This document shows, one piece after another, positions 11,005-29,662 of a DNA stretch of 64,000 nucleotides. This DNA is from Kiritimatiellia bacterium. GTDB lineage: Bacteria; Verrucomicrobiota; Kiritimatiellia; UBA8416; YA12-FULL-48-11. Positions within the stretch are counted from its first letter, which is position 1; each line of letters starts with the position of its first letter. A program made the position numbers and the translations under genes. The stretch lies in NCBI GenBank assembly GCA_028716365.1, contig JAQUPZ010000001.1, forward strand, positions 124,001 through 188,000, read 5' to 3'. The notes under the pieces were generated by a model that was not told the origin of the DNA, searched no databases, and was given only the letters and a program-made list of their open reading frames with translations.

Positions 11005-11879
11005 GTCGATTCATCCTTTCCCGGCTGTGTATCTTCTTTTTCCACTATTGCACCCCATGTCCGGAGATTTGTTTCTATGAACTCAACTGTTTTCTCATGT
11101 TCCACCCTGCCATTACCAGTAATTTCCATTACCGGACCGAACTTGAAATAAACCGGCTTGGTTCTGTCAAGATCACCGATGTCCTTGAAACGGATACCAT
11201 TGGAGTGGAAATCTGTTTTTAGTGCAATAGGTACAACGGGAACACCGGCTTTTTTGGCGAGCTTTACACCGAGAGAGTTAAATTCACCGGAATTGAATTC
11301 CACGCGGCGGGTTGACTGTGGAAAGATAAGTACAGATCGGCCGGCACGAAGAGTAGATTCTCCTTTGGTAAGTACTTCCTTCAGATCGTCTCTCGGATTT
11401 TTTCGTGAGACACTGATGGGATCCACGGCACACATTATATGACCGAATACGGGGTAGGTGAGGAGACTTTCTTTCACCACTGTGGAAAGACCACCGAATG
11501 CAAGCAGAATGCCGGGATAAAGCATTGTTTCCAGCATGCTCATGTGGTTGGACACAAACACGACTGGCTTGTTGAATTTTGCCACGCTTTCACAACCGGA
11601 TATCGTAATCTTTGCGCCACAGACTTCTGCTGCCTGGAGGATTTCGTATGACTGATGTCCCCAACATGATGTATCATATTTGCCACAGCGGGCAATGATT
11701 GCCCCGGAAGCAATGACACGGAAGATTTTCAGGTAATACCAAGTATCGGTTCTACCCAGCAAACGGTCAAGTGGAGAATACACACTTTTCTCCGATGTTG
11801 TGTAAATTCCCTTTTCCCTCAATGTTTTATGAAATTCCAGAACATTCATGGTTATTATGTAAACGGCTTTTTCTATCAT
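11001..11879 (-). CDS. PlsC-like 1-acylglycerol-3-phosphate acyltransferase
   Basis: This protein of up to 292 residues belongs to the LPLAT family that acylates lysophosphatidate or related lipids at the membrane. Motif I reads SNHMSMLETM, giving H-x4-E where the classical motif is H-x4-D. Motif III is FPQSTRRVEF instead of FPEGTR, and VPVVPIALK is motif IV. The substitutions suggest a divergent subfamily whose substrate may not be lysophosphatidate. The start could also be the later ATG giving MNVLEFHKTL. It is coupled to the DUF6941 gene. Confidence 0.75.
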   Translation of the reverse strand: MIEKAVYIITMNVLEFHKTLREKGIYTTSEKSVYSPLDRLLGRTDTWYYLKIFRVIASGAIIARCGKYDTSCWGHQSYEILQAAEVCGAKITISGCESVAKFNKPVVFVSNHMSMLETMLYPGILLAFGGLSTVVKESLLTYPVFGHIMCAVDPISVSRKNPRDDLKEVLTKGESTLRAGRSVLIFPQSTRRVEFNSGEFNSLGVKLAKKAGVPVVPIALKTDFHSNGIRFKDIGDLDRTKPVYFKFGPVMEITGNGRVEHEKTVEFIETNLRTWGAIVEKEDTQPGKDEST

Positions 11880-12054
11880 TCACGCTTGGTCAACGCAAGT
11901 GCAGAGAATAGGAACAATATTTTGGATGGGGTGGTGATACTGGAATGCGGAAACAAAGACAACGTCTGGCACTGGTACTGCTCGACATTTTATTCTGCTG
12001 TGCAAAGCAGTCGACAAAATGCCATTTTCTCACGGAAGAGGCTGTTTAAAGTTT

Positions 12055-12084
12055 TTGACAACCGCCATGTATCTGATGCATAAC
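12055..12084 (+). promoter_or_regulatory. Candidate sigma-70-type promoter for the STAS gene
   Basis: A perfect TTGACA at 12055-12060 is followed after 18 bases by CATAAC (4 of 6 to TATAAT) at 12079-12084. The STAS ATG lies 56 bases downstream. This is the best promoter in the 233-base divergent gap, but it is sequence similarity only. Confidence 0.4.
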
Positions 12085-12139
12085 TCTCAACAGGATCAGA
12101 AACTGAGATTCATTGGAATCAGCAACGAAGGGTATTTTT

Positions 12140-12529
12140 ATGCCACTAAAGATCAGTTTGCACGAACGACGGCCGACGGTATACGAGGTTGCCCTGAACG
12201 GCAGCATCGACGGGGAAACAAACAGGCAGCTGGACAAGTTTGTCGATGACATCTTCAAATTCCCGGTACGGGGGTTGACGTTCAACATGCACGGGGTAGA
12301 TTACGTGAGCAGCGCCGGAATACGCAGCGTACTGCTGGCCATGCGAAAGACCAAAGCGGGAGGCGGTGTATTTGCAATGATCGACATGCAGACACCGGTG
12401 AAGACGGTGTTCGAAATTGCCCAGATCCTGCCTCAAGCGAAGCTGTTTGCCAGTGTCGAGGAGGCCGACAAATACTTTGACATCATCCAGAAGCAGGAAC
12501 GAGAGAAGGATCAGCAAAAACCGGCATGA
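12140..12529 (+). CDS. STAS-domain protein (anti-sigma factor antagonist-like)
   Basis: This protein of about 129 residues has the SpoIIAA/STAS fold. It starts MPLKISLHERR, runs through the strand VYEVALNGSIDGETN, and has the signature VDYVSSAGIRSVLLAM with the serine normally phosphorylated in partner-switching antagonists. The track uses a TTG start at 12113; the ATG at 12140, with GAAGGG upstream, fits the domain boundary. No cognate anti-sigma kinase or phosphatase lies nearby, so partners are unknown. The tail is charged (EREKDQQKPA). Confidence 0.8.
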   Translation: MPLKISLHERRPTVYEVALNGSIDGETNRQLDKFVDDIFKFPVRGLTFNMHGVDYVSSAGIRSVLLAMRKTKAGGGVFAMIDMQTPVKTVFEIAQILPQAKLFASVEEADKYFDIIQKQEREKDQQKPA

Positions 12530-12677
12530 ACGCGGCTGGCTGGATCGCGAAACCCATCGGCCCCGGATTCAATGGCTCAAGCAGTGCTTGTCCTGGCTGT
12601 TCCAGACGCAAACTGTTCGCAGTGGAAAATGATCTCAAATCATGTTAGTCCGATGGCATAACTTTTAACACGAGTTT

Positions 12678-12758
12678 ACGGAGGATATGTTAGCAGGTTG
12701 ATACCTGCTGAGTGTCTGATACAGGATTTTCTAACGGAGGAGCAGGTTAACACCTCTT
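12678..12758 (+). promoter_or_regulatory. Paired palindromes upstream of the DUF4838 lipoprotein gene
   Basis: The gap holds two related units. Each begins with ACGGAGGA (12678 and 12734) and then carries a palindrome: AGCAGGT-TGAT-ACCTGCT at 12692-12709, and the looser AGGT-TAAC-ACCT core at 12744-12755. The units are offset by 56 bases and lie just before the gene at 12784. They could be operators or mRNA hairpins. No partner protein can be assigned. Confidence 0.35.
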
Positions 12759-12783
12759 AAGCGATAACGTGGAGGAGCTTAAA

Positions 12784-15273
12784 ATGCGAATACTATGCGT
12801 TACCGTCGTGTGTATGCTGATTACACTGAGTCTCGGATGCGTACCTAAGAAGGTGGTTATTGTGCAGGACGGCCAATCGATGGCCAGGATTGTGATTGCA
12901 CAGAAAGCATCTGACGAAATCAAAGCTGCGGCACAGGTCATGTCCCGATACATCGAGCAGGCCTCGGGTGCCCACCTCGAGGTATTGAGCGACGAGGCCG
13001 AACAGGCCGGTGACGGACTCGTCATTCAGGTAGGGCGAACCAAACTCTCCGCCAACGAGCTGCAATTTCCGAAGGACTTGGATGAGGATGGGTTTGTCAT
13101 TCAGGTACGACCCAAAAGCATTATCATCGTCGGCCCGACTGACTGGGGCACGGAGTTCGGGGTGTATGGCTTCCTTGAGAAGATTGTCGGTGTACGCTGG
13201 CTAATGCCCGGGCCCGATGGTGATGATGTTCCCGTGATGAAAACCATCACCGTCCCTGAAGGATGCATCAGCGATCAACCAGTGTTCTTCTCCCGGCTGT
13301 TCAGTGGGCTGCGCGGCACGTGTCAGACGCAGTGGGCGCGGTTCAATCGCATGCATGGGCGCGTCTCTTTTCATCACAATCTGCTGCATCTTCTACCGCC
13401 TGCTAAGTATACAAAAACCCATCCCGAGTTCTTTCCTATAAAAGACGGTAAGACGAGGCACCTGCCCACTCCAGATGAGCACGGTTGGCAACCCTGTTTC
13501 AGCGCGCCCGGCTTGGCGGACGAGGCGATCCGCAACATTATTGCCTACTTCAAGGAGCATCCGGAAAGCTCCTCGTACTCCCTGGGTGCCAACGACAGCA
13601 GTGGCTACTGCCGGTGCACTAACTGCCTGGCCCGCATCTCCGGCGAGAAGAATTTCATTGGTCGGACAGATTTTTCCGATCTGTACTATGACTGGTGTAA
13701 TCAGGTGATCGAGGGAGTTCTGAAGGTGTACCCGGATAAGTGGTTCGGCTGCCTGGCTTACAGCGAGGTGGCCGGCCAGCCGAAAAAAACAAAAGTTCAC
13801 CCGAGGCTGATCCCCTACATGACCTATGACCGCATGAAATGGATCCAGCCCAAGATCGAAGCCGATGGTCACAATGCCACCGAAGTCTGGCACGCCGCAA
13901 GCCCGACCCTTGGTTGGTATGACTACATTTACGGCACACCCTATTGCCTGCCACGGGTATTCTTTCACAAGAGCGAGCAGTACCTGCGTTATGCACAGAC
14001 GCAAGGCGTAAAGGCGCATTATGCCGAGATCTATCCGAACTTCGGAGAAGGACCCAAACCTTATGTCTTCCTGAAACTTTGGTGGAACCCAAACCAGGAC
14101 GTGGACGCTCTGCTCAAGGAGTGGTACGAGCGGTGTGTTGGTCCTGATGCTGCTCCTGCATTGGCGGGTTACTACGCGATTTGGGAACGTTTCTGGACAC
14201 AGGACATCCTCCAGTCCAAGTGGTTCACGCCGGGCGGTCAATACCTGAGCTTCTACTCTCCCGGTTACCTGGCCGACGTAAAGAAGGAGGACATTCAACA
14301 GAGCCGCAAACTCCTTGATGAATGTATTGCCAAGTGCCGGACCGACAAGCAGCAGGCACGCGCGAAACTGTTAGAGCTTGCTTTCCAGTATTACGAGGCA
14401 TCGGCACTCGCGTATCTTGCCGATAAGGAATTGCGCTCCGTACAGGTGACTACAGAGGATCAAGCCCTGGCTGTACTCGATCAGAGCGTGACCGCCCTGG
14501 AAATGGCGCAGAAGCGACGAAAGCTCGCCCTCGAGGTTTTTCCCAAGGACCCGGTGTTGGTGAATCCGCTGGGACTGGAAAGGTTCCCGATACTCGCCGG
14601 AGAGACATGGGGCGGTAACGGGATATGGACGATAGCGGACTGGGTTGTGAGAGAAGATAACCGTGTACGAAAACGTGTCGAGGAATTGGCGGCGAAATCA
14701 TCGTCTCCATTAGTGCGTGAGCAGGCAACGATCATGCTGTCTATCCTCAGGGGCAAGGCGGCCATGGAGAGTGTTAATGGTTCATTCGAAGAAGGCCAGG
14801 GGCCAGCGTCAGCAAACTGGAGTTACTGGCGGAAGCCAGATGTGCCACCTGAGAAACCGATCGGGCGCATGTTACGGACCGAGGAGATCGCTCATACCGG
14901 TAAGGCAAGTTTACTCTGCGACGGCATGCAGCGCGGAGGACCAGTGCAGAAAATGGAGTTCAAGAAGCCGGGAAGATTCTGCGCACTGGCATGGGTTTAT
15001 GCACCGCAGGGAATGGAGTCCAAGGGTACCGTCGAGATGTCAGTCACTCCCTTGGACGAAAAGGGCGGCAATCTGCCAGGTTATAGTACAACGGCCACAC
15101 CGATCCCCGGCAAATGGATGCTCCTCGTGGTCGGCTTCGACGTACCGGCACAGATCAAGGGGAAAAAGGTGTGCGGTATCCGAATCGTCCCCATTGTGAA
15201 CGGCTTCGAGAGTGGAGGCAAAGTCTATCTGGACGATGTTGGACTATATCGGGTTGACGCCGAAAACAGGTAA
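12784..15273 (+). CDS. DUF4838-domain lipoprotein with C-terminal CBM-like domain
   Basis: This is a protein of about 829 residues when started at ATG 12784, which has a GGAGG site upstream. The N terminus (MRILCVTVVCMLITLSLGC) ends in a lipobox, so it is probably a lipoprotein. Residues 30-150 form the small alpha/beta domain seen before GH20/GH67-type barrels, and 160-430 match DUF4838, a predicted TIM-barrel glycosidase-like domain. A C-x-C-x2-C cluster (YCRCTNCL) is present. From about residue 665 a jelly-roll of CBM4/9 type begins (NGSFEEGQG) and ends LDDVGLYRV. The enzymatic activity of DUF4838 is not established. A GH42-like gene follows. Confidence 0.72.
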   Translation: MRILCVTVVCMLITLSLGCVPKKVVIVQDGQSMARIVIAQKASDEIKAAAQVMSRYIEQASGAHLEVLSDEAEQAGDGLVIQVGRTKLSANELQFPKDLDEDGFVIQVRPKSIIIVGPTDWGTEFGVYGFLEKIVGVRWLMPGPDGDDVPVMKTITVPEGCISDQPVFFSRLFSGLRGTCQTQWARFNRMHGRVSFHHNLLHLLPPAKYTKTHPEFFPIKDGKTRHLPTPDEHGWQPCFSAPGLADEAIRNIIAYFKEHPESSSYSLGANDSSGYCRCTNCLARISGEKNFIGRTDFSDLYYDWCNQVIEGVLKVYPDKWFGCLAYSEVAGQPKKTKVHPRLIPYMTYDRMKWIQPKIEADGHNATEVWHAASPTLGWYDYIYGTPYCLPRVFFHKSEQYLRYAQTQGVKAHYAEIYPNFGEGPKPYVFLKLWWNPNQDVDALLKEWYERCVGPDAAPALAGYYAIWERFWTQDILQSKWFTPGGQYLSFYSPGYLADVKKEDIQQSRKLLDECIAKCRTDKQQARAKLLELAFQYYEASALAYLADKELRSVQVTTEDQALAVLDQSVTALEMAQKRRKLALEVFPKDPVLVNPLGLERFPILAGETWGGNGIWTIADWVVREDNRVRKRVEELAAKSSSPLVREQATIMLSILRGKAAMESVNGSFEEGQGPASANWSYWRKPDVPPEKPIGRMLRTEEIAHTGKASLLCDGMQRGGPVQKMEFKKPGRFCALAWVYAPQGMESKGTVEMSVTPLDEKGGNLPGYSTTATPIPGKWMLLVVGFDVPAQIKGKKVCGIRIVPIVNGFESGGKVYLDDVGLYRVDAENR

Positions 15274-15337
15274 TATTCATATCGTTCATGGTCGCTGTTT
15301 TACGATAGACCACAGACTCGATAGCAACGGAGGAAAC

Positions 15338-18088
15338 ATGATAACGAAAAAGTTATTTATCGGGTTCGTGTTACTGGCATCGGCGTTGACTACATCAGCC
15401 GACTGGTCGCTGTACGAACAATTTGATCGAGTCCTTGTTTATGATGGCCAATTCCTGCGCGAATATACTTACAAGCCGCGTGACATCCGTGGACCACACA
15501 GTGGCCTGCTTATCTGGGCGGCGTTACCGCAAAAGGACGGCAAGCTGAAACCGTATGGGAAGGGAATGGAGGTCAAGGGTGAGTTACGATCGAACCAGTT
15601 GTTGTTGTCGGGCGAGTCGACGATTAATCCAACAGTGGTTGAATTCGTCGTGATTGGTGGCAGCAAACTCGATCTGGAATTTGGTTTGTGTGACCTTGCG
15701 CTCGAGAAAGGTAGCAAAGGCACGTTGCTGAAGATTGAGATGCTTGTCGGCGGCAAGTCGTCCACAGAGACGGTGACGATCGGCGAGAACCGTTGGGAGA
15801 AAAAGACGGTGGTATTGCCAAAAGCGGAGCGCGTATTGGTAAGGCTGATGGCTTCGCGTCGCGGTGGTGGCACAAACTGGACGGGACTGGTCGTACGCGG
15901 TGACGGCGAGATCGGTTCACGCGATCAGGCGCGTGCATTGTCGCCGAACTGTGATCGAATCGGCAAACTCGACGTGACATTGAAACCGTCGCCGAATCGC
16001 GTTACGATAAAATCCGGCTATGATATCCTTTTTTACCGCGACAAACCGTTTCTGAGCTTCGCCACCAAGGGTAATCCCGCTGGCTCCGAGGAAATGCAAG
16101 GGAAACTCGGCTTCAACACGTTCTATGTCGAAGGCATGGGCTTCATGCCGTATTGGCCGGAAGGAACGCCGGGCGTGGTCATACCGCCGAACTCCAGCAT
16201 TCATCATGATCTGCGGCTCAGTCAGCAGTTCGACATGCCGTTCAAAGCCACCATCAGTATGGCACATTGCTCGCCGTTCCTGCCGAAGTGGCTGGTAAAA
16301 AAGGAGAACCTTGGTCTCGAAGGTCACAAGTTGCGCCGTGGCGGTGACACGCATACGTCATTCATCAAGCCTGCCACGCTACGATGGCACAAGACCGGGC
16401 TCGAGGGCTGGGTGAAACCGTTCCTTGACCAGCCGACGCTCTTCGTGTTCGGCCAGGAGGATGACGCGAGTTTGTGGGATGATTATTCTGCCGACGCAGT
16501 GGCAAACTGGCGCGCGTGGCTGAAGAAACGTTTCGGCGGCGATTTCCGCACGTTCGGTAATTACGTCGGTGGTGTGCGCGGTGTCGACGGTTTCGATGGT
16601 ATACCGCAGCCGAAACGGTTCGAGCCGGACGAACGCTTTGGTTTTCCGATGCGGCTGGCGTACCTGAAACTTCAGTGGATTACCGAAAGCTACGGCGATT
16701 ATCTGGCGGAATTATTTGTGCACATGCGTAAGCTTGTGCCGGGCGTACCGCTGACACAGCGATTTGTTAACTGGGCTGGCGCACCAACCATCTGCAAACG
16801 TGTCGGGTTCGACTACAATTACACATTTGGTCATCTGACTTCTGAGGGTGTGCCGAACAGTTACGGTATCGGTAAAAAAATCTGGACTGGTATCTACGCG
16901 CACATGGGTACACTGCCGTTGCCCCGAGGCGGCTCCATTGGCAAGACATACAGCCCGAAAATCCGTCGCGGCGCGATGACCCGGGCTGAGTGGGAACTTA
17001 ATGCATTTACCATCATTGCAAACGGCGGTTGTGGATTTGAGTATTCAACACTGGTGCCGACATGGGGACCGGAATGGGAACAGTCGGCGCTTTACGACGC
17101 CGATGGCAAACTCACGCCTACCGGCGAAGCCGGCGCGCCGGTAATCAAGGAAGCGCTGGAGAACGCGCGATACATGATGCACTATGAGCAATATCCCGAT
17201 GTGGCGGTATTCCACGACGCAAGCTTTAACTCCGGACCCTTTGGCGGACGTTGGGGCCATTCGAAAGTTGGTATTTATACGCTTATTCGCGAAACCGGTT
17301 TCCACTTTGATCCGCTTTCCGAGGGCGACATGACTGCGGAGAAACTGCGCGGTCGCAAGGTACTCGTGCTGGCGGGCAGTCTTTCACTCGCGCCGGAGGT
17401 TCAAGCCGCGATCCGCGACTACGTGCGCGGTGGTGGTACGCTGGTGACGGCATTCTGCTCCGACGGTCAGGGTTTTCCCGGCTGTAACAGCTACGACTAT
17501 GCCTGCAAAGTACGCGAGAGCGCCGCGCAAAAGTCGTTCGACGAGCCGAAAGCCGCGGCCCATCTTGGAGACGTACTCGGTATCCGCGCTGGCAGTGGTG
17601 TGACGGTGCACGAGCAGGTGAAGTACGACCGTCACGGTACTATCTCGCTGAAAGATTTCAATACGCTTGCCAAGGAAGGTAGATGGGTCAAACAGGATGC
17701 GTGCTGCGCGAATCTGTCACCACGGCCGGAAGCGAAAGTGCTCGCGACGTTCGAGGATAATTCGCCCGCTGCCATCGAGCATCGTTTCGGCAACGGTCGT
17801 GCCATTACATTCGCGTTTGATATCGGTCTTATTGCCAACAACCTGACCATACCGCCGCTCTACGCGTGGTGGTCAGACACACTTGTCCCGCTCGGCTGCC
17901 GCAAAGTAGTGGACACGGGTAACTGGTTTGTCGAAGCCGGCGCGTGGCACGATGACGCCGGCAACCGTCTCATCATCCTTGTCAATCACGACGCTGTTAA
18001 CGCACAGGACGCGAAGTTGCCCGACGGCAAAACGGTGCGGCTTGATCCGGGACGGGCGAAGACAGTTGTTTGCTCAAAAAATCAATAA
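15338..18088 (+). CDS. Exported GH42/beta-galactosidase-like protein
   Basis: The track ORF starts 42 codons early, inside the previous gene. The ATG at 15338 with a GGAGGA site gives 916 residues and a signal peptide (KKLFIGFVLLASALTTSADW). A beta-sandwich fills about 20-230. A TIM-barrel region follows with GQEDDASLWDDYSADAVANW, resembling the GH42-type barrel. A glutamine-amidotransferase-like trimerisation domain lies at about 630-850 (RGRKVLVLAGSLSLAPEVQA, then VRGGGTLVTAF). This domain order resembles GH42 beta-galactosidases and relatives. The catalytic acids cannot be fixed by eye, so the exact family is uncertain. It is noticeably GC-rich compared with the next gene. Confidence 0.6.
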   Translation: MITKKLFIGFVLLASALTTSADWSLYEQFDRVLVYDGQFLREYTYKPRDIRGPHSGLLIWAALPQKDGKLKPYGKGMEVKGELRSNQLLLSGESTINPTVVEFVVIGGSKLDLEFGLCDLALEKGSKGTLLKIEMLVGGKSSTETVTIGENRWEKKTVVLPKAERVLVRLMASRRGGGTNWTGLVVRGDGEIGSRDQARALSPNCDRIGKLDVTLKPSPNRVTIKSGYDILFYRDKPFLSFATKGNPAGSEEMQGKLGFNTFYVEGMGFMPYWPEGTPGVVIPPNSSIHHDLRLSQQFDMPFKATISMAHCSPFLPKWLVKKENLGLEGHKLRRGGDTHTSFIKPATLRWHKTGLEGWVKPFLDQPTLFVFGQEDDASLWDDYSADAVANWRAWLKKRFGGDFRTFGNYVGGVRGVDGFDGIPQPKRFEPDERFGFPMRLAYLKLQWITESYGDYLAELFVHMRKLVPGVPLTQRFVNWAGAPTICKRVGFDYNYTFGHLTSEGVPNSYGIGKKIWTGIYAHMGTLPLPRGGSIGKTYSPKIRRGAMTRAEWELNAFTIIANGGCGFEYSTLVPTWGPEWEQSALYDADGKLTPTGEAGAPVIKEALENARYMMHYEQYPDVAVFHDASFNSGPFGGRWGHSKVGIYTLIRETGFHFDPLSEGDMTAEKLRGRKVLVLAGSLSLAPEVQAAIRDYVRGGGTLVTAFCSDGQGFPGCNSYDYACKVRESAAQKSFDEPKAAAHLGDVLGIRAGSGVTVHEQVKYDRHGTISLKDFNTLAKEGRWVKQDACCANLSPRPEAKVLATFEDNSPAAIEHRFGNGRAITFAFDIGLIANNLTIPPLYAWWSDTLVPLGCRKVVDTGNWFVEAGAWHDDAGNRLIILVNHDAVNAQDAKLPDGKTVRLDPGRAKTVVCSKNQ

Positions 18089-21885: not shown

Positions 21886-22572
21886 TTATTTTTTACCTGC
21901 ATAAGACTTGAGCATCTTCATGAACTCACACATGCAGGGTGCATAGTCATGCCATGTCCGACAGGAGACCATGTTACCATCGAGAACCATCGGCTGATCA
22001 ACGTACTTGGCCCCGCCTTGTTCGGCATCCATCGCGCATTTGGCAACTGTGGTGACTGTTCGTCCGCGAATCACTCCTGCAGCACTGACGATTTCAATTC
22101 CATGGCACACCACGGCCACCGGTTTATTGGCTTCGAAAAAATGTTTGGTGATACGCATCAGGTCTTTGTCGTAGCGAAGATATTCCGGCGCCCGGCCGCC
22201 CGACACAAACATTCCGATGTATTGGGTAGGATCCACATCACGGAAAGCGACTTCAGCCTTGATGTGATATCCCGGCCGTTCCTCGGTAATGTCCCAGGGT
22301 ACGACGCTGTTCGGTGGGACTTCGTGAAGCACCATGTGGTATAGCCGCGCCTGGGGACCCGACACAACCACCTGGAAACCATCTTCGGCAATCCGGAAAA
22401 ATGGATAAAGGGTGTCCACAACCTCGGTAGCGTCACCGATGGGCATTAGAACTTTACCCCCTTTCGCTTTTTCTTCAGCGGCAATCAGGGAAGATGACAT
22501 CATGGCAACCGCAGAAGTTCCACTTGCCAGCATGGTACACATTTTCCGTCGGCTTATAGGCTTTTGTTTCAT
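21886..22572 (-). CDS. DJ-1/PfpI-family protein with Tat-type signal
   Basis: The ATG at 22572 is preferred over the track start because GGAAAGGA lies just upstream. It gives about 228 residues with a twin-arginine-like leader (SRRKMCTMLASGTSAVAMM). The class I glutamine-amidotransferase-like fold follows, with the nucleophile elbow AVVCHGIEI and the preceding MFVSGGRAPEYL. These match DJ-1/PfpI proteins, which act as glyoxalases, chaperones or proteases. Export of a PfpI-like protein is unusual and recurs in PVC genomes as far as I recall. Activity is unknown. Confidence 0.72.
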   Translation of the reverse strand: MKQKPISRRKMCTMLASGTSAVAMMSSSLIAAEEKAKGGKVLMPIGDATEVVDTLYPFFRIAEDGFQVVVSGPQARLYHMVLHEVPPNSVVPWDITEERPGYHIKAEVAFRDVDPTQYIGMFVSGGRAPEYLRYDKDLMRITKHFFEANKPVAVVCHGIEIVSAAGVIRGRTVTTVAKCAMDAEQGGAKYVDQPMVLDGNMVSCRTWHDYAPCMCEFMKMLKSYAGKK

Positions 22573-22732
22573 CGTGATTTTCCTTTCCATTTGTATTTCT
22601 GCCTCTGAGATCGTGAGTCTTTTCCAGTTAGAAATCCAGAAAAAACCAGTCGTAGATTCTGTAAAATTTCGCCTGCCTCATATAGTTCCCGGCCGCCGTT
22701 TCGGATACCTTTTGGAAAAAGAGAAAAAGTTC

Positions 22733-22760: not shown

Positions 22761-22856
22761 CTTTTCAGTAACCGGGACAAGAGCACTGGAGTGGGTGCTT
22801 CAGATTTGCTCCCCAAAAAAGTAATTTGTTGTCAACTGGCGTTGGAGCCAACCTAT

Positions 22857-24140
22857 ATGCGAACATCCTTTAAATCCGTCTTCATCCATAATGTAACCTT
22901 TGTCCTTTTTGCACTGGTGATTTTATGTTCGACCGTTTTTGCCGCGGAAAACTGGCCGCGTTGGCGTGGACCGCGTGATAACAGTACCGGTGTGCCCGGC
23001 AAATATCCAGTGATGTGGAGTGAAACGTCGAACATGCTGTGGAAAATCGAGTTACCCGGTAAAGGTTGTTCAACGCCCGTTGTGTGGGACCACAATATTT
23101 ATTTGACCGCGCCGGTTGAAGGTTGCGACGCAATCCTCGCTTACGACTGGAATGGAAAAAGGCAGTGGGAAACGGCTTTTGGACCTGAACGTCCCGGAAA
23201 ACATCGTGCGGGTTCCGGTAGTAATCCATCGGTTGTTACTGATGGCAGCGGATTATTTGTCTACTACAAAAGCGGTACACTGGCCGCATTGGACATGAAC
23301 GGTAAAGTACGTTGGAAAACCAACCTGCAGGAACGATACGGACCGGACAACATGGTCTGGGATATCGGTTCTTCACCCGTGTTGACCGAGAAAGACGTTG
23401 TGGCAACGATGATGCGTTCCGGTGACTCGTACCTGGCGGCATTTGACAAGGTTACGGGCGAACTCCACTGGAAGGTGGCGCGCGACTACGATGTGGCCTA
23501 TGAAGCTGATCAGGCCTACACTACGCCCATTGTGATAAACTTCAAGGGGTGTGAGTCGTTACTTGTGTGGGGCGCCGAACATCTCACTGTACATGCCGCC
23601 GCAGACGGCAAAGTTCTGTGGTCGTGCGGTGATTTCAATCCCGAGAAAAAAAGTAACTGGCCGCCTGTTGCTTCGCCGGTAATCGAGAACGGTATTGTTG
23701 TGGTACCCTATGGCCGTGGTATGCGTTGCCACGGAATCCGGCTTGATGGTGAGGGTGATGTAACCGCCAGTAATCGGCTATGGTTACGTGAGGATACTGG
23801 TTCCTATACACCAAGTCCCACAGTTTACAAGGGATGTGTCTGCATTGTTACGGAAAAATCGCGTGTTGACGGGCTCGAAATTACAACCGGTAAAACCCTC
23901 TGGAGTGTGAATATTCCGCGGGCTGTTGGCGGCTTTTTCGCATCGCCAATGGTGGCGGGTGACAGGCTTTACATTACACGCGAGAAGGGAAGCATCTTCG
24001 TTATTCAACTTGGCGGCAACACACCGGAGATTATTGCTCACAATAATCTTGGTGAACAACTCTGTGCCACGCCAGTACCCGTCGAAGGTCGTCTCCTGAT
24101 TCGCAGTGATAAACACCTCTTCTGTGTAGGTGAACGATGA
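22857..24140 (+). CDS. Exported PQQ-type beta-propeller protein
   Basis: Using the ATG at 22857 (GGAG 9 bases upstream) gives 427 residues with a signal peptide ending near VFAAENWPRWRG. The phrase NWPRWRGPRDNSTG is the typical opening of PQQ-like or BamB-like propellers of planctomycetes and relatives. Repeated blades end in motifs such as GKRQWETAFG, GKVRWKTNL, GELHWKVA and GKVLWSCG. It is probably a structural or binding propeller rather than a true quinoprotein, since no PQQ ligand set is evident. The sialidase-like gene overlaps or abuts its end. Confidence 0.75.
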   Translation: MRTSFKSVFIHNVTFVLFALVILCSTVFAAENWPRWRGPRDNSTGVPGKYPVMWSETSNMLWKIELPGKGCSTPVVWDHNIYLTAPVEGCDAILAYDWNGKRQWETAFGPERPGKHRAGSGSNPSVVTDGSGLFVYYKSGTLAALDMNGKVRWKTNLQERYGPDNMVWDIGSSPVLTEKDVVATMMRSGDSYLAAFDKVTGELHWKVARDYDVAYEADQAYTTPIVINFKGCESLLVWGAEHLTVHAAADGKVLWSCGDFNPEKKSNWPPVASPVIENGIVVVPYGRGMRCHGIRLDGEGDVTASNRLWLREDTGSYTPSPTVYKGCVCIVTEKSRVDGLEITTGKTLWSVNIPRAVGGFFASPMVAGDRLYITREKGSIFVIQLGGNTPEIIAHNNLGEQLCATPVPVEGRLLIRSDKHLFCVGER

Positions 24141-24168
24141 TGAATCAAAAATGTCAGGTTTCAAAAAT

Positions 24169-25392
24169 ATGAAATTGATTAAAAATACTACCGAAATACT
24201 GGCGCTGTTTTTATGGGTAATAACGCTTGTTGCCGGGGAAACAAGAAATTCCAGGCCGGCCACTGCTTTTCTTGAAATGGCTCTTGAACCACCAGTTGTC
24301 AATACAGTCCCAGGCCCGGAGTATTCCGACGAACAACGTGATTATGGGATGACTATAGGCATTGAACGTACACGTGGCGGGCGATTTTGGGCTGTCTGGG
24401 TTGCGGGTGGTGATAGCGACAAAGGTTACTTCGTCACCGCCACAAGTGATGATGAGGGGAAAACGTGGTCAAAGCCGCGTTTTGTAATTGATCCACCTGA
24501 AGCGCCAAATGGTCTGCGTCGCCGTATCCTTGTCGGTAATTTCTGGTGCGACCCGACAGGACGGTTGTGGCTGTTCTTTGATCAGTCCATGGGTTACTTT
24601 GACGGCCGTGCAGGTGATTGGGCCATCACCTGCGATGATCCCGATGCCGCACAGCCCGTGTGGTCTGCGCCACGTCGAATTTATCACGGCATGACGCTCA
24701 ACAAACCTACAGTTTTACGTAACGGGGACTGGTTGTTGCCAATCTCGCTTTGGACGCGTGATCGCATCGGACCGGCAGAATTACGAAATTCTTTTCATGA
24801 ACTCGATGATCAACGCATGGCACACACTTTTGTCTCGGTTGATCAGGGAAAAACATGGACACGGCGCGGAGGAGTAATAGTTCCACAAAGTGACTTTGAT
24901 GAACATATGTTTGTTGAACTCAAAGACGGCCGACTCTGGATGCTGGCGCGTACGAAGTATGGTATTGCAGATACATTTTCGCCGGATGGCGGACGTACAT
25001 GGAGTGAACCGAAACCGTCGCCCATCCAGAATCCAAATGCACGATTTTTTATACGTCGTCTCATATCGGACCGTTTGCTGATGGTAAAGAACGGTCCGCT
25101 TGGTAAGCGTACAGGCCGTTCAGAAATGACGGCATTCCTCTCGGATGATGACGGCAAGACCTGGCTCGGTGGACTTGTACTGGATGAACGAAACGGTGTC
25201 TCTTACCCCGACGGTTTCCAGGCGCCGGATGGTAGAATATTCATCTCTTATGACCATAATCGTGCGGCAGATCGCGAAATTCTTCTCGCCGTTTTTACGG
25301 AAGAAGACATACTTGCCTGTAGAGCAACATCCGGAAAGGCGTGTCTTAAAGGCATTATTAACAAAGCGATTGGGCCGACAAAAGTGCGATGA
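24169..25392 (+). CDS. Sialidase/BNR-repeat exo-glycosidase-like exported protein
   Basis: The track begins at GTG 24130, overlapping the previous stop. The ATG at 24169 is more likely because it starts a signal peptide (KLIKNTTEILALFLWVITLVAG), giving 407 residues. Several Asp-box blades are visible: SDDEGKTWS, VDQGKTWTR, SPDGGRTWSE and SDDDGKTWL. These define a six-blade sialidase-like propeller (GH33-type or exo-alpha-sialidase-like). The sialidase Arg triad cannot be assigned by eye, so the substrate may not be sialic acid. The gene is coupled to the upstream propeller gene. Confidence 0.7.
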   Translation: MKLIKNTTEILALFLWVITLVAGETRNSRPATAFLEMALEPPVVNTVPGPEYSDEQRDYGMTIGIERTRGGRFWAVWVAGGDSDKGYFVTATSDDEGKTWSKPRFVIDPPEAPNGLRRRILVGNFWCDPTGRLWLFFDQSMGYFDGRAGDWAITCDDPDAAQPVWSAPRRIYHGMTLNKPTVLRNGDWLLPISLWTRDRIGPAELRNSFHELDDQRMAHTFVSVDQGKTWTRRGGVIVPQSDFDEHMFVELKDGRLWMLARTKYGIADTFSPDGGRTWSEPKPSPIQNPNARFFIRRLISDRLLMVKNGPLGKRTGRSEMTAFLSDDDGKTWLGGLVLDERNGVSYPDGFQAPDGRIFISYDHNRAADREILLAVFTEEDILACRATSGKACLKGIINKAIGPTKVR

Positions 25393-25535: not shown

Positions 25536-26444
25536 ATGAATATATCAATGAACCGTCGGGAATTTCTTCGGAACAGCAGCGGGATAGTGGCGGGTGTTGC
25601 TGCGGCCAGTTTATGGAATGGCTCGTCTGTGTCCGCAGAGCAGGTCAAGGTAAGTACACCCAACGCGGAAAAACTGGGATGGAAGATGAGCGTTGCGACA
25701 TACACCTACCGGCGTTTTCCATTATACGAGGCACTGGACAAAATTGCCGCACTCGGAGTCAGGCACATCGAGCCGGCTTTCTTCCTGAAACTTGACAAGG
25801 CACGTCCGACACTCCAGATAAACGAGAATCTTTCTGCGGAGGTCCGCAAGGAATTCAAAAGCAAGCTAGCAGACATGGGCATATCCATGTCGAGTTTCTA
25901 TTCCTCACTGAACGCCGACGAGGACAAAGCGAAAAAGATTTTCGAGTTCTGCAAGGAAATGGGCGCAGGGACAATCGTGGCGGAACCACCGGATAACGCG
26001 TTTGATATGATTGAAAAACTTTGCGAGGAGTACAAAATCAACGTGGCCATCCATAATCATCCTGAAAAGCAGAATTACAAAAACTGGAAACCGGAAAATG
26101 TACTGGAATTGTGCAAAAACCGGAGTAAGAGGATAGGTGGCTGCTGTGATACCGGGCATTGGGTACGTTCCGGCCTCGATGCGGTTGAATGCCTGAAGAA
26201 AATGGAAGGACGGATTGTCAGCTTCCATCTCAAGGACGCGGCCGAGATGGGTAACAGGAAGTCCCCTGACTCTATTCTAGGCGAAGGCAAGGCCAACTAC
26301 AAAGAAGTCCTCAAGGAACTCAAGCGTCAAGGGTACAAGGGACTCACGGCCATTGAGTATGAAAATGACACATCTGCGCTCCAGGAAGAAATGGTCAAGA
26401 ATGTTGCTTTCGTCGAATCCGTAGCCAAAGAACTGGTTGGATGA
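25536..26444 (+). CDS. Tat-exported sugar phosphate isomerase/epimerase-like TIM barrel
   Basis: This 302-residue AP-endonuclease-2-type TIM barrel carries a Tat signal (NRREFLRNSSGIVAGVAAA) and a GAGGAAAGG ribosome site. Metal-site motifs of the family are visible: VAIHNHPE, CCDTGHWVRSG, VSFHLKD and TAIEYEN. Such proteins isomerise, epimerise or eliminate sugars. An exported one cannot act on cytoplasmic sugar phosphates, so a free or oxidised sugar substrate is likelier. The stop overlaps the next start by 4 bases (ATGA), so the two proteins are probably made together. Confidence 0.78.
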   Translation: MNISMNRREFLRNSSGIVAGVAAASLWNGSSVSAEQVKVSTPNAEKLGWKMSVATYTYRRFPLYEALDKIAALGVRHIEPAFFLKLDKARPTLQINENLSAEVRKEFKSKLADMGISMSSFYSSLNADEDKAKKIFEFCKEMGAGTIVAEPPDNAFDMIEKLCEEYKINVAIHNHPEKQNYKNWKPENVLELCKNRSKRIGGCCDTGHWVRSGLDAVECLKKMEGRIVSFHLKDAAEMGNRKSPDSILGEGKANYKEVLKELKRQGYKGLTAIEYENDTSALQEEMVKNVAFVESVAKELVG

Positions 26445-29400
26445 TGAAATGTTACATGTTACAGCGACGGACAGTTGTTGTGGCATTTAGACTTTTTGTT
26501 TTCGCGGGTGTGATGTTTTCAGCTACGGCTGGTGATTGGCCCACTTTCAGGGCAGATGCTTCACGCAGTGGTTACACTCCGGAAGTACTGTCGACCAATC
26601 TAAATCTGACTTGGACATATCAATCGGTTCACCCGCCGATGCCTGCCTGGCCGACGCGGAATCGCCTGCGTTATGACACCGTATATCAGCCGGTAATTTC
26701 CGGTGGAGCTCTTTTTTTCGGCAGCTCGGCTGATGGCAAGGTGTATGCATTGGATGCCGTCACCGGTCGATTGAAATGGGAATTCTTCACTGATGGACCG
26801 GTACGGTTTGCACCAGCAGCCTGGAAAGACCGCGTGTTTGCGGTAAGTGACGATGGCCATTTGTACTGTCTGTCGGCGAAGGACGGACGACTACTCTGGA
26901 AGCGACATGGTGGTTCGCGACCGGACATGATCCTGGGTAATGACCGTATGATCTCACGCTGGCCAGCACGCGGTGGTCCGGTGGTGGCCGATAATATTGT
27001 CTATTTTGCTGCAGGTATCTGGCCCAGTGAAGGCATCTTTATCTGTGCTCTCAATCCACTTAATGGAAAAGTATTATGGTGTAACAATTCTTCCGGTTCC
27101 CTGGAAATGGATCAACCCCATCCCACGGCCCGTTCAAAAAGCGGCGTGGCCGCCCAGGGTTATCTGGCCATAGACGGCGATCGACTGGTGGTACCCACGG
27201 GTCGGGCAGTACCTGCGTTCTTTGATCGAAGTGATGGAAAATTCCTGTACTGCTGGCTCCAGCCAAATGTACACGTCGGCGGTTGTGATGTCATGACTTT
27301 TGACAGATGGTTTTTTAATGGTGGGGCAGTTTTCACTCTCATTGATGAAACAATGATTGGAAAAATGGGAACTGTCGCGGCCCTTCATCCAGATTATCTT
27401 CTGGTTTCAGGCAAAACACCTTCTCTTAATGTCATCGATAGAAAAGCTCTCGTGGTTGAAAAGCAAATCACCGGCCCAAAGGGACAGAAGAAAACAGGTA
27501 AAGGTCTGGCTGCTCCTCTGTGGACAATTAAATTGCCGGAAGAAGTCATGCTCAAACAGGTTCGACTGAAAGGATCCGAGACACCAGGGTACAAAACGAT
27601 GGGTTCAACTGCCTGGTATGATTTGTCCATCGAGGGGCAACCCGCGGCGTTGATTACAGCCGGTGATTACGTAATTGTGGGTGGCCGGGATCGTGTCCTG
27701 ATGTTTGATTTACGATCACGTAATCAGGTTTGGAGCGCTGATGTTGAAGGTGAGGCCGGCGGGTTGGCGATGGCCGATGGCCGGTTGTTTGTAAGTACCG
27801 ATAAAGGGATGATTTATTGTTTTTGTGGAACGGTAACAGGAAAACCGGCCACCATCAAAGCTGCAATAGAGACAGAACCGGAAGACCCGTTATACCAGGC
27901 CGCTGCGGACGAAATAATTCGACGCACGGGTATCAAGGAAGGTTACTGTGTTGATTTTGGCTGCGGTGATGGGCGGTTGGCTTTGGCGCTGGCCCGGCGT
28001 ACCAGTTTACAGATTTACGGTGTTGAGCAAGATGCAACCAAAGTTGAAGCGGCCAGACGCATGCTTGATAGGGCAGGATTCTACGGGAAAAGAGTAATGA
28101 TCCATCAAACCAATTTGGCGAAAGTACCTTATCCTAATTCTTTTGCTGATTTAATTGTATCTCAACAATCGGTTGAAAAGGGGACAAAAGATTTTATTAA
28201 CAATGATGTTCGGCGAATGCAACGGCCTTACGGGGGTGTAGTCTGTGTGGGACGTTCTGGTGCCATGGAGTTATACACCCGCGGTCCGGTGGAAGGAGCT
28301 GGTAACTGGACGCACCAGCATACGGATTCCGCAAATACACTTTGTTCTGAAGACCTTGTCATTCGTGCACCTGTGTCTATGCTCTGGTTCCGCGATACGG
28401 ATTTTGTCCTGCCTTTACGTCACGGCCGCGGTCCCGCTCCACTGGTTGATTCCGGGAGGATGTTTATCGGAGGATTACACGGAATGCGAGCAATGAATAT
28501 CTACAACGGCCGGACCCTGTGGGAATACCCTCTGGAAAATCTGCTCCTTTCTTACCATAGTGAGCATAGCATTGGCGCCGCATGGACCGATGGACATTAC
28601 TGTCTTGGTGGGAACCGTCTTTACGTAAATACCGGTGACCGATGTGTATGTCTTGACGTGGAAAGCGGTAAAAAGATTCGTGAGTTAAATCCGCCAGCTT
28701 ATCCTAACGGCAAACCGGGAACCTGGGGATACATCGCCTATGAGGGTGGTTTGTTATTTGGTACACTTGCCGAAACAAACTATCTCGTGCGGTGCTGGTC
28801 ACCGTTATGGAATACCGGTGGCCAGTTTATCCAGTCGGTCATGTTCTTTGCAATGGATCCGGATACCGGTAAAATCAAATGGACCTACAAACCTGAACGA
28901 TCCATACGAAACAATGCCATTGCCATCAGTAAAGGACGGGTTTATCTCATAGATCGCGATATTGCGCGCGTTGACGACATTCAATATCCGGTACAGGACC
29001 TTCAAGCCGAGGCCAAGCGGTTGGCCAAGGCCAATGATACCCACGAAGATGATGAAATACGGGCACTTGCCCCGCAACCTCCCAATGGCCGGTTACTGGC
29101 ACTGGCCGCTTCGACGGGGCAGGTCTTATGGAAGACCGACGAGAATGTGTTCGGCAGTCAGCTGGCGGTGAGCGAAAAATACGGTTTGCTTCTGATGTGT
29201 TATCAACCGGTCCATCAGGCATCGCTGGCTGTGGAGCGGGGTGACCGTATGGCTGTTTTCAAAACCGTTGACGGTTCGCGAGTGTGGGATGTTTCGGCAA
29301 ATTATGAGGCCCGGCCAATACTCAATGACCGGACGATCTACGCAGAACCGGGCGCGTGGGACCTGCTCACCGGCCAGAAAACGCCGTTTATGCTAAAGCG

Positions 29401-29662
29401 ATCTTATGGATGTGGTATTCCGGCGGGTTCACGGAACCTGCTTGTCTTTCGTTCGGGGACGCTGGGATATGTTGATCTGACAAAGGGCGATCAGGTTGAA
29501 AACTATGGAGGAATCCGGCCCGGTTGCTGGGTGAATGTGATTCCAGCCGGAGGTTTGTTGGTGATGGCCGATGCGGCCAGTTGGTGTACATGCAGTTATC
29601 TTAACCAGGCAACAATCGCCCTCGAACCGGCATCAGCTTCTTTATTGCCTCCAATCCTGTGA
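26441..29662 (+). CDS. Exported PQQ-type propeller with embedded SAM-methyltransferase domain
   Basis: This 1073-residue protein has a signal peptide (about residues 8-30, ending SATAGDWPTF). Residues 30-470 are PQQ-type propeller blades (GRLKWEFFTDG, GRLLWKRHG, GKVLWCNN). Residues 490-620 then read as a class I methyltransferase: VDFGCGDGRLALALARR is the SAM-binding loop, YGVEQDATKV the acidic second strand, and FADLIVSQQ motif IV. Propeller blades resume from about 670 to the end (GRTLWEYPL, GKIKWTYKPE, GQVLWKTDE). The open frame shows no break, so this is a true insertion or fusion. SAM is not known to be available outside the cytoplasm, so the domain may be degenerate or reused. Confidence 0.75.
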   Translation: MMKCYMLQRRTVVVAFRLFVFAGVMFSATAGDWPTFRADASRSGYTPEVLSTNLNLTWTYQSVHPPMPAWPTRNRLRYDTVYQPVISGGALFFGSSADGKVYALDAVTGRLKWEFFTDGPVRFAPAAWKDRVFAVSDDGHLYCLSAKDGRLLWKRHGGSRPDMILGNDRMISRWPARGGPVVADNIVYFAAGIWPSEGIFICALNPLNGKVLWCNNSSGSLEMDQPHPTARSKSGVAAQGYLAIDGDRLVVPTGRAVPAFFDRSDGKFLYCWLQPNVHVGGCDVMTFDRWFFNGGAVFTLIDETMIGKMGTVAALHPDYLLVSGKTPSLNVIDRKALVVEKQITGPKGQKKTGKGLAAPLWTIKLPEEVMLKQVRLKGSETPGYKTMGSTAWYDLSIEGQPAALITAGDYVIVGGRDRVLMFDLRSRNQVWSADVEGEAGGLAMADGRLFVSTDKGMIYCFCGTVTGKPATIKAAIETEPEDPLYQAAADEIIRRTGIKEGYCVDFGCGDGRLALALARRTSLQIYGVEQDATKVEAARRMLDRAGFYGKRVMIHQTNLAKVPYPNSFADLIVSQQSVEKGTKDFINNDVRRMQRPYGGVVCVGRSGAMELYTRGPVEGAGNWTHQHTDSANTLCSEDLVIRAPVSMLWFRDTDFVLPLRHGRGPAPLVDSGRMFIGGLHGMRAMNIYNGRTLWEYPLENLLLSYHSEHSIGAAWTDGHYCLGGNRLYVNTGDRCVCLDVESGKKIRELNPPAYPNGKPGTWGYIAYEGGLLFGTLAETNYLVRCWSPLWNTGGQFIQSVMFFAMDPDTGKIKWTYKPERSIRNNAIAISKGRVYLIDRDIARVDDIQYPVQDLQAEAKRLAKANDTHEDDEIRALAPQPPNGRLLALAASTGQVLWKTDENVFGSQLAVSEKYGLLLMCYQPVHQASLAVERGDRMAVFKTVDGSRVWDVSANYEARPILNDRTIYAEPGAWDLLTGQKTPFMLKRSYGCGIPAGSRNLLVFRSGTLGYVDLTKGDQVENYGGIRPGCWVNVIPAGGLLVMADAASWCTCSYLNQATIALEPASASLLPPIL

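Follow-up and report, generated by a model that had tools for sequence, protein, structure and literature searches.

The window, a stretch of 64,000 nucleotides from a Kiritimatiellia bacterium (contig JAQUPZ010000001.1, positions 124,001 to 188,000, assembly GCA_028716365.1), carries at 26441-29662 on the forward strand a gene for a protein in which a class I methyltransferase (MT) domain sits between two tandem beta-propellers, behind a signal peptide. The protein belongs to a large, widespread family, centred on the Planctomycetes-Verrucomicrobia-Chlamydiae (PVC) bacteria, which carries generic annotations only. Our best explanation, to which we give a probability of about 0.5, is that this is an envelope protein whose MT-fold module binds S-adenosylmethionine (SAM), a SAM-like molecule or an adenosine-type ligand between propeller scaffolds, in association with uptake or processing systems. 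The parts are known, BamB-like propellers and a class I MT fold, and their place is unusual: SAM is cytoplasmic, and class I methyltransferases are therefore assumed to be cytoplasmic as well.

Two tandem propellers and a methyltransferase-fold domain

The gene is a single uninterrupted open frame of 1073 codons, as the first-pass annotation had it, and the signal peptide and class I MT core described there were also found. Two clades of the MT segment are distinguished below among 95 sequences: clade I, with 37 sequences including that of the window, and clade II, with 58. The features of the window protein are as follows, with positions in amino acids (aa).

26441..26533, + strand: Sec-type signal peptide, aa 1-31, ending in VVVAFRLFVFAGVMFSATA and followed by GDW (sequence and hydropathy test)
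26534..27865, + strand: propeller A, BamB/PQQ-like (PQQ, pyrroloquinoline quinone), aa 32-475 (Pfam PQQ_2; AlphaFold2 all-beta, predicted local distance difference test (pLDDT) mostly >90; Foldseek)
27872..28288, + strand: class I methyltransferase-fold domain, aa 478-616 (Pfam Methyltransf_25/11/31; AlphaFold2; Foldseek)
27941..27979, + strand: motif I, GYCVDFGCGDGRL, aa 501-513, a SAM-type glycine loop with Asp505 (clade I conservation)
28016..28033, + strand: acidic strand end after motif I (post-I), YGVEQD, aa 526-531, with E529 as the ribose-hydroxyl-type acid (acidic at 529 across clades)
28289..29635, + strand: propeller B, aa 617-1065, opening with the family-specific segment GxWTH..AD.ANT.CS..L..LWF (hhalign to propeller A 98.4%)

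The order is thus signal peptide, propeller A, MT, propeller B. Pfam finds PQQ_2 stretches in the protein (E 5.5e-34), and hhalign shows homology between the halves on either side of the MT (probability 98.4%, E 7e-15), which share the opening segment W...D..RS/ANT...LxW (W-x-x-x-x-x-D-x-x-[RN]-[ST] ... L-x-W). Because the flanking halves are homologous, the MT lies between two propellers and not inside one, which replaces the earlier picture of an MT embedded in a propeller. A family member at locus L155 is split into two adjacent exported genes (11589-13961 and 13958-15571, +), the one encoding a purple-acid-phosphatase-N domain, the MT and propeller B, and the other propeller A alone. This split also rules out an insertion into a single propeller.

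AlphaFold2 was used to predict the structure of the whole protein from a 60-sequence alignment, giving a mean pLDDT of 91.6 and a predicted TM-score of 0.91, with the signal region modelled as a helix at 10-25 of low pLDDT. The top Foldseek matches of the whole model are BamB, tetrathionate hydrolase and PQQ dehydrogenases (PQQ-ADH). Each propeller half resembles BamB (YfgL) and PQQ_2 by profile and fold (TM-score by target of about 0.7 to BamB), and both proteins are exported, but the window protein has two tandem propellers and an MT domain, and its 65 bits against the BamB equivalog model TIGR03300, with a cut-off of 285, place it outside BamB. Propeller blades and fold are likewise shared with the PQQ-dependent alcohol dehydrogenases and the "empty quinoproteins" (TIGR03075, TIGR04528). 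It is not a member of the PQQ dehydrogenases either, since all the model scores lie below their cut-offs: 51.5 versus 480 bits for TIGR03075, 47 versus 650 for TIGR04528 and 25.6 versus 833 for TIGR03074. In the planctomycete Tuwongella immobilis, 28 genes are annotated as BamB, with products of 43-193 kDa, a few of which turned up in different fractions (PMC8567305). That size range may include members of the propeller-MT family.

The MT domain was identified by profile and by structure. Pfam matches Methyltransf_25 at aa 504-580 (E 1.2e-9, above the gathering cut-off), and the matches to Methyltransf_25, 11 and 31 at aa 504-594 all lie above their cut-offs. The MT core has a pLDDT of mostly 96-98, and a separate model of the MT segment alone has one of 92.4. 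With the isolated domain, Foldseek gave a probability of 1.00 to SAM methyltransferases, led by 3dlc (E 3.4e-12, TM-score by query 0.70) and followed by RebM, TleD, SpnF and others. The predicted helices (483-496, 512-520, 532-544) and strands (500-506, 522-529, 552-556, 571-573, 600-603) form the Rossmann core of alternating beta and alpha elements characteristic of the class I SAM-dependent methyltransferase superfamily; the 3-2-1-4-5 strand order was read off the fold match. The models support a class I MT fold for the core, in line with the assignment in the first-pass annotation.

The two sequence signatures of the SAM site, a D/E-x-G-x-G-x-G motif I and an acidic residue at the end of strand 2, are both present (VDFGCGDG and E529). 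With the SAM methyltransferases of the Methyltransf_11/25 kind (3dlc MMP1179, RebM, TleD) the domain shares its fold, motif I, the post-I acid and a strand-4 motif, FADLIVS followed by RPYGG. The differences are that the family is exported, that in clade I the part beyond strand 5 appears to be missing or reduced and that clade II lacks the Asp of motif I. SpnF (4pne, TM-score by query 0.65), a [4+2]-cyclase with an MT fold, illustrates that this fold can do other things than methylate, but it is a single-domain biosynthetic enzyme from an unrelated setting.

The modules also occur in other arrangements. Three circularly permuted paralogs in the window's own genome (L028:7327-10398, -; L033:4869-7958, +; L034:4853-8095, +) keep all three modules in the order signal peptide, MT, B, A. 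Their motif I is degenerate, and their MT segments are matched weakly or not at all by the Pfam MT models. Among the clade II members examined, a C-terminal malectin domain is frequent and one member has an N-terminal 3-keto-disaccharide-hydrolase domain. Near the end of propeller B (window 29411-29593), C991 is invariant and C1029, C1049 and C1051 are nearly so, with C1049 and C1051 forming a CxC; these four cysteines are candidates for disulfides or a metal site.

Export and conservation across the family

The N-terminus of the window protein, LQRRTVVVAFRLFVFAGVMFSATA followed by GDW, was judged to be a signal peptide by eye and by hydropathy. Signal peptides across the family were called with a test of hydropathy and position in the 95 members with upstream sequence. 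A hydrophobic, signal-like segment lies within 60 residues before the mature start in 89 of the 95, versus 67 of 485 internal control stretches, and in the permuted members the MT immediately follows this segment. By this test the family has the N-terminal signal peptide of exported proteins. None of the 95 has a strict Tat (twin-arginine translocation) motif. The protein is therefore probably exported unfolded and, given the Sec mechanism, would not carry SAM out; Tat export with bound SAM is unsupported.

The completeness of the SAM pocket was judged from sequence alone. In clade I the loop consensus is GYCxDLGCGDGxLA, and few positions of the MT domain are as well conserved as those of the pocket: D505 is kept in 36/37 members, G509 in 34/37, G511 in 36/37 and an acidic residue at 529 in 28/37, while the adenine-side position 558 is D, N or E in 30/37. 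In clade I the MT and the propellers are conserved to a similar degree, with mean entropies of 1.70 for the MT and of 1.69 and 1.55 for the propellers. Pairwise dN/dS (the ratio of nonsynonymous to synonymous substitution rates) in the MT segment is 0.09-0.36, which indicates purifying selection. These values and the conservation rule out the suggestion that the MT is a relic.

The clades differ beyond the glycine loop. Between G599 and W623, clade I has a link of exactly 24 residues with one short strand, and clade II mostly one of 44-66 residues; clade I is without the extra ~25-35 residues after strand 5 that are found in clade II, so the last-helix and strands segment of other MTs would be missing or reduced in it. 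The acid at 529 is retained in 55/58 members of clade II. On one reading, what remains of the pocket in clade II is its ribose side, the methionine side having been lost, and the likeliest reading of the clade II MT is that it binds another ligand.

Relatives and their genomic surroundings

The window's own genome contains 12 family members. A pattern-based scan of named genomes gave at least 575 confirmed relatives, and the best 80 of these, which were taken further, come from Planctomycetota, Verrucomicrobiota (including Lentisphaerae and Kiritimatiellota), Armatimonadota, Hydrogenedentota, Sumerlaeota, Omnitrophota and a few others. The 80 contigs from other genomes hold 78 full-length members with the A-MT-B order, so the search of other PVC genomes that had been proposed found the same domain order, and about 95 sequences from many phyla were examined for it. 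With a profile of the MT plus junction, members were found in 21 of 289 sampled genomes of Verrucomicrobiota, the phylum of the window, and in 51 of 294 sampled genomes of Planctomycetota (the phylum of G201, Sedimentisphaerales), with a maximum of at least 12 copies per genome. Among the matches listed, the closest homologs of the window protein are from Planctomycetota (63-57% identity). Since the window is from Verrucomicrobiota, this suggests that the family has moved between phyla.

The genes around relatives, mostly those of clade II, recur. A TonB receptor, a ModA/B/C-like importer, an FtsX/MacB-type permease with its ATPase (an FtsX/LolD-type ATP-binding cassette (ABC) pair) and an exported protein are often directly adjacent, and sulfatases belong to the recurrent set as well. 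The TonB receptors have the plug motif RGRKVKQFxSFRGQ, and in the exported protein the signal peptide is followed by C(N/R)xPVFRY or CRYNVRE. An exported family seen at L093:9844-10989 (+) and, with its relatives, in ~13 loci has C(N/S/D)(V/I)PV(F/Y)(R/K)(Y/W)A directly after the signal peptide; several members have a CxC motif further on, and they often directly adjoin propeller-MT genes. Searches of Pfam and NCBIfam gave no match for this family. At L142:4227-18544 the order is porin, ModA-like protein (above the TIGR01256 cut-off), exported MT lipoprotein, ModB, ModC, CRYN protein, propeller-MT, FtsX permease and ATPase, and parts of the cluster recur at L039, L057, L089, L090, L108, L109, L116 and L123.

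Other exported methyltransferases were observed in these loci. Stand-alone forms with canonical motifs are found at L142:15332-16186 (-), L153:2783-3607 (+), L155:9651-10508 (-), L154:5417-6223 (+), L156:9197-9955 (-) and L146:8942-9694 (+). They are mostly lipoproteins, with fully canonical motifs (IGIDLGSGPGTL, NADINP and ADAxxLPF), and several loci place them beside a TonB receptor or ExbB or beside propeller-MT genes; the one at L153 sits between a TonB receptor and ExbB/ExbD/TonB-like genes. The MT lipoprotein is rare (1/289 and 6/248 sampled genomes). The TonB-dependent receptor encoded at L053:5043-7748 (-) also carries a canonical class I MT domain of this kind (Methyltransf_11, E 3e-18), placed after the signal peptide and before the plug. 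Its gene converges on a neighbouring clade I propeller-MT gene whose frame is broken in that assembly. A search of the window's own genome for the lipoprotein MT or the TonB-receptor MT found no strong relative. A further MT with a signal-like N-terminus is encoded at L135:459-1223 (-), in the genome of L045, where the homolog nearest to the window protein among the matches listed is found. Large proteins with a hydrazine synthase alpha middle domain, or relatives of one, are also found near propeller-MT genes (L026:15913-18999, L034:8553-11774, L098:1481-3991, L114:299-3157), and one with a domain of this type adjoins the closest paralog of the window gene.

In the window itself, the gene lies within a run of exported genes, which on the same strand includes:

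22791..24140, + strand: separate exported BamB/PQQ-like propeller gene (Pfam PQQ_2 E 6e-31)
24130..25392, + strand: exported BNR/sialidase-like gene (Pfam BNR_2 E 5.1e-35), with an 11-base overlap with the preceding gene
25536..26444, + strand: Tat-type TIM-barrel gene (MNRREFLRNSS), Xylose-isomerase-like (Pfam AP_endonuc_2 E 2.4e-23)

A serine hydrolase, an XylR-type regulator and a DUF4838 protein follow, and by its gene content the neighbourhood looks like one for carbohydrate use or polysaccharide degradation. The TIM-barrel gene, directly upstream, does overlap the propeller-MT gene by 4 bases, as had been noted, but the coupling proposed from it does not hold as a system, since no homolog was found near related loci. 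On the opposite strand (21886-22590, -), a DJ-1/PfpI protein has an N-terminus, SRRKMCTMLASG, that resembles a Tat signal; the family is normally cytoplasmic, and a Tat-like signal is unusual there.

Ligand and role of the exported domain

In the explanation that we prefer, Sec would export the protein to the cell envelope, where the two propellers would serve as a scaffold holding the MT-fold domain. With its SAM-type pocket signature, the clade I domain probably binds SAM, a SAM-like molecule or an adenosine-type nucleoside, which would be supplied in the periplasm or from outside. Within an uptake or (carbohydrate-)processing system of the envelope, the domain would then do the binding and possibly also the catalysis.

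Several points weigh against this. The ligand is a prediction from sequence and fold. All four pocket signatures (D505, G509, G511 and acidic 529) occur together in 23/37 members of clade I, and D505 is replaced in 58/58 members of clade II, mostly by V. Transporter genes are seen mostly near clade II members, and the window gene's own neighbours are polysaccharide-degradation-like genes, not a transporter cluster. The first-pass annotation had called an exported methyltransferase puzzling, and the puzzle stands: the literature searched reports no periplasmic SAM pool and no exported SAM methyltransferase.

The protein could be a true extracytoplasmic SAM-dependent methyltransferase, with SAM exported or taken up and a propeller-held substrate, such as a glycan, metallophore, metal(loid) or surface polymer, being methylated. 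In its favour, clade I members from different phyla share the canonical DxGCGDG loop, and exported lipoprotein MTs with complete canonical motifs lie beside TonB receptor, ExbB/D and propeller-MT genes. We consider it possible but rather unlikely: it requires a SAM supply that the literature searched does not describe, no precedent for such an enzyme was found there, Sec export argues against SAM being carried out in a folded protein, and clade I is without the ~25-35 residues after strand 5, from which the acceptor side is built in many MTs.

It is doubtful, too, that the domain is a pseudo-methyltransferase, a Rossmann domain acting as a structural spacer or protein-protein interface without a small-molecule ligand. 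If it were no more than a spacer, the retention of D505 and G511 in 36/37 members of clade I would be unexpected. The ribose-type acid is also retained in most of clade II. Motif I is nevertheless degenerate in several members (L036, L038, L043 and L028 7327-10398), D505 is absent from all of clade II, and most close pairs show faster evolution in the MT segment than in propeller B. Clade I is harder to reconcile with a purely structural role than clade II and the degenerate members are.

An ordinary SAM methyltransferase that remains in the cytoplasm, as the first-pass annotation had allowed, or faces it, with an uncleaved or non-functional signal, is very improbable. SAM is cytoplasmic by established knowledge and the signal peptides were called by hydropathy, but the segment directly precedes the mature domain in nearly all members, the permuted ones included, BamB-type propellers are envelope proteins, and so are the products of the relatives' neighbouring genes. 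An artefact joining two genes, for which no supporting point was found, is refuted by the order shared with the full-length homologs in other genomes, several of them on apparently chromosome-sized contigs such as the apparently closed G589:C1 and G609:C1.

A literature search found no description of the A-MT-B architecture, of a periplasmic methyltransferase or of a TonB-receptor-MT fusion. With hundreds of members carrying a SAM-type pocket behind a signal peptide, the use of SAM or a related nucleoside in the envelope is directly testable. If the pocket binds something else, an enzyme fold has been reused as an extracytoplasmic binding module, linked in relatives to TonB and ABC uptake. Taken more broadly, and only as a tentative idea that we think will probably not hold, PVC-type bacteria might perform extracytoplasmic chemistry that depends on SAM or a SAM analogue, through an exported MT repertoire of propeller-MTs, MT lipoproteins and TonB-receptor-MT fusions that would be tied to outer-membrane uptake.

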